64,000 bases of DNA from Microbacterium hatanonis. GTDB lineage: Bacteria > Actinomycetota > Actinomycetes > Actinomycetales > Microbacteriaceae. The notes beneath the pieces were generated by a model, which was given only the letters and a program-made list of their open reading frames with translations, was not told where the DNA came from and did no database searches. Made by a program: the position numbers and the translations under genes. How positions within the stretch are numbered: the stretch's first letter is position 1; each line of letters starts with the position of its first letter. The DNA is taken from assembly GCF_008017415.1 (NCBI RefSeq), contig NZ_VRSV01000001.1, positions 1,984,001 through 2,048,000 of the forward strand, in the 5' to 3' direction. Shown here piece by piece: positions 25,005 to 58,461 of the stretch.

Positions 25005-25799
25005 TCAGCGCACGTGCTGCACGTCGCCGGCCGCGACCGGCGTCTCCACACCGTCGACGACCACGACGAGGCGCCCGTCGGGGTCGATGCGCTGCGCACG
25101 ACCCTCCAGCGCCCTGTCGTCGGGCAGCGACACGACGACATCGCGGCCGAGCGTCGCGCACAGGCTCTCGACCTCCCCCAGAACGTTCGCCGCGGCGGCG
25201 TCACCGCCGAGTGTGATGAGCGCCTGGAGCTGCTCGTCGAGCGCGCGCAGGAAGTCGGCCAGCAGCCGGTCGTCGTCGCACTCCGCTCCGACCGCGGCGA
25301 ACGAGGTCGCCGTAGAGACGGGGAGGTCGGCCCGGGTCATACGGGTGTTGACTCCGGCTCCGACGACGACCGCGTCCATCGTGCCGGGGAGGGCTTCGGC
25401 GAGGATGCCGCAGATCTTCGCGCCGTCGACGAGCACGTCATTCGGCCACTTCAGCTGGGTCGTGTTGCCCGTGCCCTTCAACTGCGCGGCCACCGCGCGG
25501 GTCATCGCCGCCCCCGCGATGAGCGGGATCCACCCGCGCGAAGCGGCGGGAAGCCCCTCGACCCGCACGAGCACCGAGACGGCGAGGGCCGTGCCCGGCG
25601 GCGCGGTCCAGGTGCGTCCGAGCCGCCCGCGTCCGGCGCGCTGGTCGGTCGTCACGAGCGCGGCCAGGTGCGGCCAGCCCTCGGGGTCGGCGGATGCGGC
25701 GGCGACCGCGTCGGCGTTGGTCGAATCGGTGGTCGCGACCACCTGCAGGCGCGGACTGACGGCGGCGGCGAGCGGGTAGCCCTCGGCGGGGATCGGCAT
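25005..25799 (-). CDS. birA: Biotin-[acetyl-CoA-carboxylase] ligase
   Basis: Attaches biotin to the carrier domain of acyl-CoA carboxylase; its likely target is the AccA protein encoded at 34.1 kb. 264 aa. ATTDSTNADAV, TTDQRAGRGRLGRTWTAPPG (biotin-AMP loop), QLKWPNDVLVDGAKICGIL and VVGAGVNTRMTRADLP are family signatures. There is no N-terminal DNA-binding domain, so it is a monofunctional ligase. The ATG at 25799 sits 6 nt behind TAGGGT, favouring a leaderless start; GTG at 25805 is the in-frame alternative. Confidence 0.94.
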   Translation of the reverse strand: MPIPAEGYPLAAAVSPRLQVVATTDSTNADAVAAASADPEGWPHLAALVTTDQRAGRGRLGRTWTAPPGTALAVSVLVRVEGLPAASRGWIPLIAGAAMTRAVAAQLKGTGNTTQLKWPNDVLVDGAKICGILAEALPGTMDAVVVGAGVNTRMTRADLPVSTATSFAAVGAECDDDRLLADFLRALDEQLQALITLGGDAAAANVLGEVESLCATLGRDVVVSLPDDRALEGRAQRIDPDGRLVVVVDGVETPVAAGDVQHVR

Positions 25800-25805
25800 G
25801 GCCAC

Positions 25806-25877: not shown

Positions 25878-25943
25878 CGGTGAAATCGGCCGGAGTCGGT
25901 GCGCGTCGACGTGAACACGCACCGAATCGGGCCGATTTCACCG
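25878..25943. repeat. Long palindrome P1, upstream boundary of DUF559 cassette 1
   Basis: Arms of 26 nt at 25878-25903 and 25918-25943 pair with 24 of 26 matches around a 14-nt loop that itself contains the palindrome CGTCGACG. The same element, with 2 mismatches in its right arm, recurs at 26915-26982 on the other side of the DUF559 gene. It lies in the 5' gap between birA and the DUF559 gene. Confidence 0.9.
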
Positions 25944-26051
25944 CGGACACGGAAGAAGGGACGCGTCCTCCCCAGGCGGTCTGCGGCGGGATCTCTCCCC
26001 ATTCGCCCTCTTTGCATCCGCGGGCCGCGAGCACGCGGCAACGGTGGGCGG

Positions 26052-26897
26052 ATGGGTTCGAGCACGAGATCTCTGCGGCACCTCGTCGTCGCGCGCGGTT
26101 ACGTCCATCTGGCGGAGGTCCGCGAGGCCGGGTGGCGACCCGACGCCATCCGCGCGGCCGTCACGAGGGAAGGGCTGGTGCGAGCGGGCCGCGACTGGGT
26201 GCTGCTTCCCAGCGCACCCCCGGAACTGCTGCTCGCCGCCCGAACCGGCTGCGCGGTCACCTGCGTCTCGGCGGCATCGCTGCGCACGCTCTGGCGCGCC
26301 GACGACGACCGCGCCGTCCATCTGGCGGTGCCCAGAGGAGCGCGCAGCTCGCCGGCCGGCGCACACGGACATTGGGGCGCCGGCGTCGTTCCGCGGCCCC
26401 GGCGTCTTCTCGTCGACGCGGTCGAGAACATGCTCGCCGCCGTGGCGACCTGTCGTCCTCACGAACAAGCCCTCGCGATCTGGGAATCGGCGGCGCGCGC
26501 CCGCCTCATCACCGTCGAGGGCATCGGGGCGATCGACTGGCGCGGCGAGCGGGCTCGCGCCCTCCGCGACGAGACCACCGCTCTGTCGCACTCGGGCCTC
26601 GAGACCTTCTTCGTCTCGCGGATGCGGCGGCGAGGCGTCGAGGTTCGACAGCAGGTCAAGATCGACGGCCATCACGTCGACGGCCTCATCGGCGCCCGGC
26701 TCATCGTGCAGATCGACGGCTTCGCCCACCACTCCGATCCGCGACAACGTCGATCCGACATCGCCCACGACCGCCGGCTGCGGTTGCTCGGATACACCGT
26801 GCTGCGTTTCGATTACCGCGAGATCGTCGACGATTGGACCCGGGTGGAGGCCACCGTCCTGGCCGCCATGGCGCAGAATCTTCACCTCGCGCGATGA
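26052..26897 (+). CDS. DUF559-type nuclease-like protein with AbiEi-like N-terminus
   Basis: 281 aa. Residues 1-95 look like the winged-helix AbiEi-type domain (RHLVVARGYVHLAEVREAG, then VREGLVRAGRDWVLL-like strand). The C-terminal part is a Vsr/PD-(D/E)xK fold: HSGLETFF (Glu about 184), HHVDGLIGARLIVQIDGFAHH (Asp about 210, then Q-x-D at about 222), and RRLRLLGYTVLRFDYREIV. Gln stands where most family members have Glu, so catalytic activity is uncertain. No Shine-Dalgarno site is obvious at the ATG. The gene is bracketed by palindromes P1 and P2 and is the only gene between birA and accD. A similar protein is encoded at 50.3 kb. Confidence 0.78.
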   Translation: MGSSTRSLRHLVVARGYVHLAEVREAGWRPDAIRAAVTREGLVRAGRDWVLLPSAPPELLLAARTGCAVTCVSAASLRTLWRADDDRAVHLAVPRGARSSPAGAHGHWGAGVVPRPRRLLVDAVENMLAAVATCRPHEQALAIWESAARARLITVEGIGAIDWRGERARALRDETTALSHSGLETFFVSRMRRRGVEVRQQVKIDGHHVDGLIGARLIVQIDGFAHHSDPRQRRSDIAHDRRLRLLGYTVLRFDYREIVDDWTRVEATVLAAMAQNLHLAR

Positions 26898-26914
26898 CCC
26901 GCCCCCTATCCGAA

Positions 26915-26982
26915 TCGGTGCGTTCGGCGCGTTTCGGTGACCGCGAGGGGGTAGTCGCACCGAATCGCGCCGAATTCACCGA
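26915..26982. repeat. Long palindrome P2, downstream boundary of DUF559 cassette 1
   Basis: Arms of 25 nt at 26915-26939 and 26958-26982 pair with 22 of 25 matches around an 18-nt loop. It starts 17 nt after the DUF559 stop codon, so it may also act as a terminator. Its right arm matches that of P1 at 24 of 26 positions. Confidence 0.88.
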
Positions 26983-27066: not shown

Positions 27067-28656
27067 GTGACAGAGCAGCCCGACCACGCGACCACCGCCG
27101 GCAAGATCGCCGACCTCCGCACGAGGTACCAGGAGGCGGTCGTCGATGCCGAGGCCGCCGCCCAGGCCAAGCAGCACGCGAAGGGCAAGTTCACCGCCCG
27201 CGAACGCATCGCCCTGCTGGTCGATCCGGGCTCGTTCGTCGAACTCGACGAGTACGTCCGCCACCGCACGACGGCCTTCGGCATGGACAAGTCGCGACCC
27301 TACGGCGACTCCGTCGTCACCGGCACGGGAACGATCCACGGCCGCACGGTCGCCGTCTACGCGCAGGACTTCTCCACCTTCGGCGGCTCGCTCGGCGAGG
27401 CGGCCGGCGACAAGATCATCAAGGTGATGGAGCTCGCGCTGCGCAGCGGCATCCCCATCATCGGCATCCTCGACTCCGGCGGCGCCCGCATCCAGGAGGG
27501 CGTGGTCGCCCTCGGCAAGTACGGCGAGATCTTCCGCCTGAACACCGCGGCCTCGGGTGTCATCCCCCAGATCTCGCTCATCATGGGCCCCGCGGCGGGC
27601 GGCGCGGTCTACTCCCCCGCCCTCACCGACTTCGTGATCATGGTCGACAAGACGAGCCAGATGTTCGTCACCGGACCCGACGTCATCAAGACCGTGACCG
27701 GCGAGGACGTCGGCATGGAGGAGCTCGGCGGCGCCTACACGCACAACACCCGCTCCGGCGTCGCGCACTACCTGGCCGAGGACGAGGACGACGCGATCGA
27801 CTACGCGCGCACGCTGCTCGGGTTCCTCCCCGACAACAACATGGCCGAGACGCCCGTGTTCGACACCGGTTTCGAATTCGAGACCACGGATGCTGACCGG
27901 TCGCTCAACAGCGTCATCCCCGACTCCCCCAACCAGCCCTACGACATCAACACCGTGATCGGTCGCCTGATGGACGACGGCGAGTTCCTCGAGGTGCAGC
28001 CGCTGTTCGCCCCGAACATCGTGATCGGGTTCGGTCGCGTCGAGGGGCGCACGGTCGGCATCATCGCGAATCAGCCGTCGCAGATGGCCGGCACGCTCAA
28101 CATCGAAGCCGGCGAGAAGGCCAGCCGCTTCGTGAGGTTCTGCGATGCGTTCTCGGTGCCGATCGTCACCCTCGTCGACGTGCCCGGCTACCTGCCCGGC
28201 ACCGACCAGGAGTGGACCGGCGTCATCCGCCGCGGCGCGAAGCTGCTCTACGCGTACGCCGAGGCCACCGTGCCCCTGGTGACCGTCATCCTTCGCAAGG
28301 CCTACGGCGGCGCATACATCGTCATGGGCTCGAAGCAGCTCGGCGCCGACATCAACCTCGCGTGGCCGACCGCCGAGATCGCCGTCATGGGCGGGCAGGG
28401 CGCTGTGAACATCCTCTACCGCGGCGAGATCAAGCGCGCCGAGGAGGCTGGCGAAGACGTCGCGGCCGTGCGGGCGCGTCTCGCGAGCGAGTACACCTAC
28501 AACGTCGCCTCCCCGTTCCTGGCCGCCGAGCGCGGCGAGCTCGACGGCATCATCGAACCCGCCCAGACGCGCGTGTCGATCGCGAAGGCCCTCCGCGCCC
28601 TCCGCAACAAGCGTGCGACCCAGCCGGCCAAGAAGCACGGGAACATCCCCCTGTGA
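27067..28656 (+). CDS. accD: Acyl-CoA carboxylase beta (carboxyltransferase) subunit
   Basis: Moves the carboxyl group from carboxybiotin to acetyl- or propionyl-CoA; feeds fatty-acid synthesis. 529 aa, full length. [21 protein letters not shown] is the N-terminal carboxyltransferase signature; [38 protein letters not shown], and in the second half [17 protein letters not shown] and [19 protein letters not shown] are diagnostic of PccB/AccD5-type subunits. GTG start, probably leaderless. The epsilon subunit gene overlaps its stop. Which acyl-CoA it prefers is not resolved here. Confidence 0.95.
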
Positions 28657-29077: not shown

Positions 29078-29093
29078 TTCTCTTTCTTCTCTT

Positions 29094-29129
29094 CCACCGT
29101 CCTGGACCCCTCCCCTACCGGGACGGTGG
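29094..29129. repeat. Inverted repeat at the 3' end of the two-component operon
   Basis: CCACCGTCCTGG at 29094-29105 pairs with CCGGGACGGTGG at 29118-29129 (11 of 12). It lies between the accDE terminator and the stop of the convergent membrane-protein gene. No T tract follows on the minus strand, so a terminator role is only possible. Confidence 0.45.
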
Positions 29130-29150
29130 AGGAGAAGACTTCGGTGCGCG

Positions 29151-40491: not shown

Positions 40492-40586
40492 CGGGTCGGG
40501 GCGCACATCTCCGGGTTCGGGGCGCGGATTTCGGGTCGGGGCGGGGAATCCCGCGCCCCGATGCGAGTTCTGCGCCCCGAACGGGG
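40492..40586. repeat. Inverted repeat element A, left boundary of the GNAT cassette
   Basis: Built from three 20-bp units in one orientation (core CGGGTTCGGGGCGC) followed by two in the opposite orientation. The reverse complement aligns along its length with element B at 41559-41653, so A and B are long inverted repeats flanking 40587-41558. Confidence 0.85.
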
Positions 40587-50208: not shown

Positions 50209-50259
50209 TGTCCCGATCCCGCCGGGAAAGAGTGCTTCGTTCCCGGCGGGATCGGGACA
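50209..50259. repeat. Perfect palindrome H1, 3' boundary of DUF559 cassette 2
   Basis: TGTCCCGATCCCGCCGGGAA at 50209-50228 pairs perfectly over 20 bp with 50240-50259 around an 11-nt loop. It ends 1 nt before the stop codon of the minus-strand DUF559 gene, so it is positioned to terminate that transcript and also that of the hydrolase on the plus strand. Confidence 0.95.
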
Positions 50260-51177
50260 TCAACCCCGCGACGGCGACCACCCGGCGCGCAGCAACGCCT
50301 CCCGCACGAGGAAGACAGCCGGTTTGCCGCCATCGCGCAGGTGGTGCCGCAGCACTCGCACCACATCCCAACCCGCGCGGCGTATGGCCGGCCAGCGATC
50401 GGAGTCTCGTTCGAACTGCCGGACGTCGAAGGCATGCTGCCGGCCGTCGTACTCCGTCCCGACGCGCCACCGCGGATAGGCCAGATCGAGCCGCGCCACG
50501 AACCGGCCGCTCGTGTCCCGCAGCACCCAGTTGAGCTCGGGCTCCGGCAGACCGGCTCGCGCCAGCACCAGGCGCAGCCGGGACTTCTCGGACGACTCCG
50601 AACCCGCACGGATGGCATCGAGCGCGGCGCGCAACCGCTCCGCGCCCACCCCGCCCATCGCCGCTGCCTCGCAGCGCAGCTCCTCGAGCGTGGCGCAGCG
50701 GCCGCGCCCGACGAGATAGTCACCCGCCGCCACGAGATCGTCGAGGCTCCATGATGCGCCGGCCTGCCGCCAGGCCCTGGCGGGCGACTCGACGGGGAGT
50801 CCCCCGATGAGATGCACCGCCGCATCCCGGTGCTGGAGCCGGTGGCCGATCACCCCCTTCACCCGCGGCTCGCGCTGCGGACGGTGGGCGCTGACGTGCA
50901 CCTCACTACCGGAGCGGCCCGAGGGCATCGGCGCACCCCAGAGGGCGAGGGCCGTGCCGTGGCTGAAGAACTGCCAGGGCGCGATCCGTGCGGCGAACTG
51001 CTGACACTGCCGAAGAAGTCCGTACGAGCCAGCGTCCTTATGGTCGCGCACGCCCGGAAAGGGGATGGTGAGATCGCGGGCGTCGAGCCGTCCGGCGCGC
51101 ACGCCGGCCCGCTGGGCGTCATGGATGGAGAACGGTCCTGCACGAAGTTCGGCGGGCAGATCGGCGGGAGGGCGCAT
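50260..51177 (-). CDS. DUF559-type nuclease-like protein
   Basis: 305 aa. The N-terminus FSIHDAQRAGVRAGRLDARDL resembles the AbiEi-type winged helix of such proteins. The C-terminal domain has the Vsr/PD-(D/E)xK set: SSEKSRLRLVLARAG (Glu), FVARLDLAYPRWRVGTEYDGR (Asp, then E-Y-D) and RRAGWDVVRVLRHHL. Unlike the 26-kb protein it keeps Glu in the third motif. It shares layout rather than close identity with that protein. It is bracketed by palindromes H1 and H2 and has no functional neighbour (hydrolase on one side, adenosine deaminase on the other). Confidence 0.77.
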   Translation of the reverse strand: MRPPADLPAELRAGPFSIHDAQRAGVRAGRLDARDLTIPFPGVRDHKDAGSYGLLRQCQQFAARIAPWQFFSHGTALALWGAPMPSGRSGSEVHVSAHRPQREPRVKGVIGHRLQHRDAAVHLIGGLPVESPARAWRQAGASWSLDDLVAAGDYLVGRGRCATLEELRCEAAAMGGVGAERLRAALDAIRAGSESSEKSRLRLVLARAGLPEPELNWVLRDTSGRFVARLDLAYPRWRVGTEYDGRQHAFDVRQFERDSDRWPAIRRAGWDVVRVLRHHLRDGGKPAVFLVREALLRAGWSPSRG

Positions 51178-51269: not shown

Positions 51270-51326
51270 CGATGTCCCCATCCCGCCGGGAAAAGAGCCC
51301 GCATTCCTGGCCGGATGGGGACATCG
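51270..51326. repeat. Palindrome H2, 5' boundary of DUF559 cassette 2
   Basis: Arms of 23 nt pair with 2 mismatches around an 11-nt loop. Its left arm (TGTCCCCATCCCGCCGGGAA) differs from that of H1 at one position. It lies about 95 nt upstream of the DUF559 start and just beyond the 3' end of the adenosine deaminase gene. Confidence 0.93.
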
Positions 51327-58421: not shown

Positions 58422-58461
58422 ACGACCACGGCCAGCCGGATCACCGGCTGGCCGTGGTCGT
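58422..58461 (-). terminator. Strong hairpin after the bmp gene
   Basis: ACGACCACGGCCAGCCGG (58422-58439) pairs perfectly with 58444-58461 over 18 bp around the 4-nt loop ATCA. It starts 8 nt after the bmp stop and separates the abundant binding protein from the membrane components. No T tract follows, so it acts as an intrinsic terminator or an mRNA 3'-end stabiliser. Confidence 0.75.

Follow-up and report, generated by a model that had tools for sequence, protein, structure and literature searches.

To our knowledge, the HUH RAYTs are the single kind of dedicated enzyme associated with REP-like palindromes. In REP/RAYT systems (REPtrons), a single-copy, domesticated-looking gene is flanked by its own palindromes, and related palindromes with gene-matched specificity are dispersed in the same genome, some of them in coding regions (PMC2817692, PMC3733652, PMC8266576). 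The REP hairpins of these REPtrons are cleaved and joined by TnpA_REP (PMC8266576). Other REP families have been reported without a dedicated transposase, among them the CGTC-tagged REPs, which are short dispersed palindromes and in some cases intragenic (PMC3733652). Paired inverted repeats are also bound by proteins of type IV toxin-antitoxin systems: for autoregulation, AbiEi attaches to two such repeats of 23 bp in its own promoter, while Rv2827c has four binding repeats (PMC7319586).

Here we describe a DUF559 gene from a genome of Microbacterium, a group of soil actinobacteria, that is bounded by two copies of a long palindrome, an association that recurs at many loci of the Microbacteriaceae. 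It seems to be an undescribed analogue of the REP palindrome systems that relies on a different, unrelated enzyme, and we found no paper in the open-access literature describing an association of DUF559 with palindromes.

Results

The gene and its palindromes, P1 and P2, are located between birA and an accD-type carboxyltransferase gene in the 64-kb window, i.e., the whole stretch of DNA that was analysed (Table 1). In agreement with the initial annotation, no other gene lies between these two neighbours, gene and palindromes form a unit, and P1 and P2 are related, their right arms (CGCACCGAATCGGGCCGATTTCACCG and CGCACCGAATCGCGCCGAATTCACCG) being identical at 24 of 26 positions. Both palindromes are long and imperfect, and together they constitute direct repeats (72% over 72 nt). 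Their predicted folding is markedly stable, with z-scores of -6.2 for P1 and -4.7 for P2 and no equally good structure among 200 shuffles. At this locus, Rfam gave no match at gathering thresholds, and the promoter and terminator scan called neither element. The small palindrome CGTCGACG that had been pointed out in the loop of P1 is indeed there, but the 91% orthologues do not share it, having GTCCAGGTAGAC as their loop sequence, and so it is probably incidental. Only seven palindromes of the strength of P1 and P2 occur in the window, four of which flank two DUF559-type genes. Other strong palindromes at 29085-29138, 40515-40582, and 58422-58461 of the window have no link to DUF559 and are possibly terminators.

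Table 1. Position of the two palindrome-flanked DUF559-type genes and of neighbouring features in the window
Feature	Position	Strand	Remarks
birA	25005..25805	-	left neighbour; divergent from accD
P1 palindrome	25878..25943		upstream of DUF559 gene; 8-nt loop in stem; arms 25878-25906/25915-25943, complementarity 90%
P1 words	CGGTG 25878-25882, 25897-25901; CACCG 25920-25924, 25939-25943		CACCG is the reverse form
DUF559 / REase_MTES_1575 protein	26052..26897	+	281 aa; predicted AbiEi-like residues 3-176, predicted Vsr/EDxHD-like nuclease ~179-281
P2 palindrome	26915..26982		downstream of DUF559 gene, beginning 18 nt past its stop codon; arms 26915-26939/26958-26982, complementarity 88%
P2 words	CGGTG 26916-26920, 26935-26939; CACCG 26958-26962, 26977-26981
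accD-type carboxyltransferase	27067..28656	+	right neighbour
Unit-2 palindrome	50209..50259		abuts stop codon of unit-2 gene; 3 further dispersed copies in genome
Unit-2 gene, MTES_1575/DUF559-like	50260..51177	-	canonical E-x-D-G-x-x-H (TEYDGRQH)
Unit-2 palindrome	51270..51326		upstream of unit-2 gene

The birA-accD gap measures 1261 bp in this genome, compared with 152 bp in genomes G020 and G006, both of which have neither gene nor palindrome there. From the single sequence the unit had looked inserted, which the comparison with relatives does not support, the empty gaps of G020 and G006 aside. DUF559 orthologues occupy the same gap at no fewer than 15 other Microbacterium loci, with one and the same orientation at all those whose two flanks could be compared, and in a quick tree the genes from this gap form one clade (SH-aLRT 98). 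Moreover, two related genomes, G140 and G050, share the unit and its flanks with the genome studied here, and no target duplication was evident by eye at the outer ends of P1 and P2, the unit being old. In the birA-accD gap the DUF559 gene is of long standing, and some species have lost it or never had it. It stands alone in intergenic DNA, and an empty form of the gap exists.

On the basis of its sequence, the protein belongs to DUF559 (PF04480; E 2.6e-10, 40.6 bits against a curated cut-off of 20.6) and falls slightly under the cut-off of REase_MTES_1575 (PF18741; 36.3 against 38.2 bits). Both models match all 38 aligned homologues at E < 0.1, and NCBIfam has no model for the protein. Its AlphaFold2 (AF2) model, with a pLDDT of 93.6, points to two modules. 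Residues 3-176 of the model resemble the AbiEi antitoxin (6y8q; Foldseek E 8.1e-5, Z 8.5), and the AbiEi_4 Pfam model matches 11 of the 38 homologues. Residues 179-281 of the predicted structure resemble I-Bth0305I (Z 13.4), NGO0050 (Z 12.8), and Vsr (Z 11.2), and the model and these matches give this part a PD-(D/E)XK nuclease fold. The prediction is thus a two-part protein, in which a DNA-binding module of the AbiEi type is followed by a nuclease of the Vsr/I-Bth0305I type. No Y1 transposase was found among the 38 members, for which Pfam returned, apart from some weak models, only DUF559, MTES_1575, and AbiEi_4.

The set of catalytic acids typical of this fold is incomplete. While D210 is invariant, one acid is replaced by Gln220, which confirms the earlier suggestion of a Gln in place of the third catalytic acid: in the alignment it occupies the place of the catalytic Glu that NGO0050 and I-Bth0305I have, and it is present in 38 of 38 homologues. 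Since Gln220 is invariant, like D210, D222, R233, D236, and D240, it is a family trait and not a sign of decay, and QxDG was found at this position on reading 25 of the 118 DUF559 loci individually. With Gln220 in place of a catalytic acid, the nuclease may have a changed activity or none.

The protein of the second palindrome-flanked gene in the window (unit 2) has a Glu at the position of Gln220, and its palindromes are shorter and simpler than P1 and P2. Profile comparison relates it weakly to the first protein, and its AF2 model, built from two sequences only, has a pLDDT of 39.5 and was set aside. A third unit in this genome (L064 1403-2511; C1:155.3-156.4 kb) encodes a 300-aa protein that is 48% identical to that of unit 2 and is flanked by a different palindrome pair (CTGAGAGTCCACAACACCCGGACG...).

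The association extends well beyond these units. A palindrome is found beside the gene at 65 of 118 distinct Microbacteriaceae DUF559 loci and on both sides at 23. A gene flanked by its own palindromes is a trait shared with REPtrons. Because the inverted-repeat (IR) score used is ungapped, weak palindromes are missed, and about 45% of the loci have none at the threshold used. Palindromes lie just downstream of the stop codon at 46 of these loci and upstream at 42; for the upstream ones, the median distance from their end to the aligned start is 150 nt. In an adjacency test with a threshold of IR score >=15, 39 of 70 loci had a palindrome within 300 nt of the gene and 0 of 70 had one at 900-1200 nt on either side; the corresponding value for shuffled sequence is 0.24%. 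The 57.9 kb of intergenic DNA beside DUF559 contain 84 palindromes, while 11 were found in 31.2 kb taken from elsewhere between genes (P 6e-26). With 20 expected from the latter, the excess is approximately fourfold.

The same pattern is seen in Cryobacterium, Leifsonia, Okibacterium, and Mycetocola. Beyond the Microbacteriaceae it is seldom seen: the one clear pair comes from a different actinobacterial family (locus L312, genome G412), where matching long palindromes lie at -755 and +247 from the start of the DUF559 domain. The 118 loci are distributed over a few conserved genomic positions, five of which account for 77 loci. One locus (L232) on a contig labelled Planococcus sp. APC 4015 consists of Microbacterium-like DNA and occupies the same position as locus L095; the assembly is probably mislabelled or contaminated.

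The palindromes share a common anatomy. Exact 5-mer repeats within an arm recur at an offset of 18 in 19 of 55 palindromes and at an offset of 19 likewise in 19 of 55, where fewer than one each was expected, and as the word occurs twice per arm, there are four words per palindrome. Among 17 P1-family copies from three genomes, conservation is highest in the words and a TCGG/CCGA core and among the lowest in the loop; no GTAG is conserved at the foot of the palindrome in this alignment. Base-pair covariation, assessed in six copies, is weakly above that of shuffles. The palindrome differs between gene lineages, even at the same place in other genomes. At the birA-accD orthologues, for example, the word varies (CGGTG, GCAGG, GAGG) and a spacer such as AATCGGCC persists. 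Protein identity and palindrome similarity are correlated (Mantel rho 0.31, 0 of 200 permutations), a covariation to which descent of whole loci from common ancestors contributes. In 28 of 31 comparisons (P 3e-8), the upstream and downstream palindromes of one locus are closer to each other than to those of loci at the same position, and therefore the two ends evolve in concert. Gene and palindromes are long-term residents that are inherited vertically at few conserved positions and co-evolve.

Copies of the palindromes also occur away from the gene. In this genome, five additional members of the P1 family were located (C1:549963, 1056832, 1066406, 1969579, and C2:109818), none of which adjoins DUF559, and its sites number seven here, seven in G140, three in G050, and none in G020, with one weak match in G006. 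Among 99 genomes, the P1 model detected only this genome (G000), G050, and the weak G006 match (E 0.007); G140 came from a later search. The palindrome had been described as private to the unit; as copies lie elsewhere in the genome without the gene, this does not hold for the unit, but it does hold for the gene lineage (G000, G050, and G140, with the weak G006 match). The L095 family has six sites in its own genome (G011) and none in seven others, and the unit-2 family has five sites in this genome, where it was searched. Copy numbers in these three gene families are low, with 3-7 sites each. As in REPtrons, the palindromes are dispersed and, apart from the one weak P1-model match in G006, are absent from genomes without the gene, which was checked for the P1 and L095 families.

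Most dispersed copies are intergenic and several lie near the 3' ends of genes, while one P1-family copy is in frame within an ABC ATPase fusion ORF and one unit-2 copy is in frame within a helicase ORF. Several P1-family sites are common to this genome and its close relative G140. Two of them were compared with G050, where they are decayed and not cleanly empty, and no recent transposition was seen; the P1 copies are hence old and vertically inherited. Another strong palindrome of this genome (CGAGGGTGCCCGTTTCCGCC...; L068 1227-1294) lies beside no identified DUF559 gene.

At two positions the gene has been inverted between homologous neighbours. Beside a gene for 6-phosphofructokinase (named from its translation), the DUF559 gene has the opposite orientation at 6 of 29 loci (23 versus 6), and at the second position it is reversed at 3 of 10 (7 versus 3). 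In the pairs inspected, flanking homology stops near the palindromes, and recombination between palindromes would be the simplest account of the inversions.

Discussion

That the DUF559 gene and its palindromes are coupled seems to us very probable. We also lean, with less assurance, towards reading them as a coupled pair akin to REP/RAYT but with an unrelated enzyme. The resemblance to REPtrons lies in the predicted fold, the putative AbiEi-like reader, the lineage-private dispersal, and the concerted evolution taken together. However, RAYTs are HUH tyrosine transposases, whereas the enzyme here is predicted to be an AbiEi-like protein with a Vsr/EDxHD-like nuclease. In addition, the palindromes are longer than those of REP/RAYT (45-95 nt, with two words per arm) and low in copy number, and the P1 family has no GTAG tag. 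The CGTC-tagged REPs are similar in being dispersed and partly intragenic, but they are found in other bacteria and have another sequence.

Each half of the protein has its own closest relatives. Like AbiEi and Rv2827c, it has the predicted N-terminal fold and DNA-binding architecture of a type IV antitoxin. In contrast to AbiEi systems, it is fused to a nuclease domain, its palindromes are also downstream and dispersed, and there is no adjacent AbiEii nucleotidyltransferase toxin gene, the neighbours being birA and accD. The catalytic domain appears to have the fold of the EDxHD homing endonuclease I-Bth0305I and of Vsr, and a stand-alone, possibly selfish gene is a further point of similarity. 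Unlike in these enzymes, the gene lies outside an intron or intein and is flanked by palindromes, and the protein has a Gln in place of an acid and an AbiEi-like DNA-binding part.

On the basis of these features, we propose the following mechanism. Each DUF559 protein would have a cognate palindrome in which one arm holds two copies of a short word, spaced by 18-19 bp, and the opposite arm holds them inverted. Such palindromes lie on both sides of the gene, ahead of the promoter region and right after the stop codon, and a few more are found elsewhere in the same genome, mostly intergenic. The AbiEi-like N-terminal module would read the words; such an arm reader is plausible given that AbiEi proteins bind paired 23-bp inverted repeats. 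The Vsr/I-Bth0305I-like C-terminal domain would then nick or cut the palindrome, probably in an extruded or single-stranded form. Host repair may copy the palindrome to other sites and homogenise both ends, as dispersal and concerted evolution suggest, and the flanking palindromes may occasionally recombine and flip the gene. What the analysis shows is the association, privacy in two families and dispersal in three, covariation, the word period, concerted evolution, and a predicted fold, while recognition, cleavage, copying, and mobilisation of the palindrome by the DUF559 protein are inferred, and so is the cause of the inversions. Whether the protein actively disperses its palindrome seems to us evenly balanced. 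More tentatively still, and with some doubt, we suggest that the Microbacteriaceae contain a widespread second and independent class of palindrome-propagating systems, in which an AbiEi-type reader fused to a PD-(D/E)XK (Vsr/EDxHD-type) nuclease would recognise its own four-word palindrome, copy it, and keep the copies alike, and could turn its gene around between two such palindromes.

The strongest rival explanation is that the protein is simply an AbiEi-like autoregulator, with the palindromes as its operators and the dispersed copies as a small regulon or chance relics, since this covers both binding and covariation, though not the downstream and dispersed copies. The match of the N-terminal 176 residues to AbiEi and an arm length of about 26 bp, near the 23 bp of the AbiEi repeats, fit an operator, and covariation of word and protein is expected of operators too; autoregulation of the AbiEi type also accounts for the upstream copy without any mobility (PMC7319586). 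It is somewhat peculiar, however, that operators should be at least as common downstream of the gene (46 loci) as upstream (42), and that the upstream ones should stop short of the aligned start by 150 nt (median). Moreover, several dispersed copies lie near 3' ends or in ORFs rather than at promoters, and an operator role alone does not explain dispersal. We consider this explanation rather unlikely, though it deserves to be taken seriously.

It is far less probable that the whole palindrome-gene-palindrome unit is mobile and that lone palindromes are scars of recombination between its direct repeats, in the manner of solo LTRs. The palindromes on the two sides of the gene repeat each other directly, with up to 97% identity in L095, and the gap without the gene in G020 and G006 would suit such a loss, yet no scar is present in that gap, none of 11 dispersed sites convincingly matched the flanks of 150 DUF559 loci, and complete units remain at few conserved positions. 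We regard as slighter again the chance that the palindromes are ordinary structural sequence, acting as factor-independent terminators or insulators and lying only by chance next to a stand-alone gene: their tight position after the stop codon, the dispersed copies near gene 3' ends, and the strong hairpins would suit this role, but P1 and P2 have no T tract and no terminator call, and terminators would not be expected to lie upstream as well, to covary with the protein, to be private in sequence to a gene lineage, or to contain words with a period of 18-19 bp. Finally, that a mobile unit entered the birA-accD gap recently, as the initial annotation had it, would agree with the 152-bp gaps of G020 and G006 but is highly improbable in view of the single clade of orthologues in the same gap, the unit and flanks common to G140 and G050, and the lack of an evident target duplication. 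The initial annotation had named the gene in relatives and P1-like copies without the gene as findings that would count against it; both are partly borne out in so far as recent insertion is concerned, and the association itself has been strengthened.

If the proposed partnership of gene and palindrome is correct, DUF559, a large family of unknown function, gains a testable substrate and role, and many DUF559 genes of the Microbacteriaceae can be read as such units. It would also mean that palindrome-gene partnerships arose more than once. The natural pairs of co-varying proteins and words could reveal a DNA-recognition code.

Tandem extra palindromes were observed beside the same DUF559 gene at two loci (L130 2431-2638 and L159 2382-2619), which suggests local multiplication.
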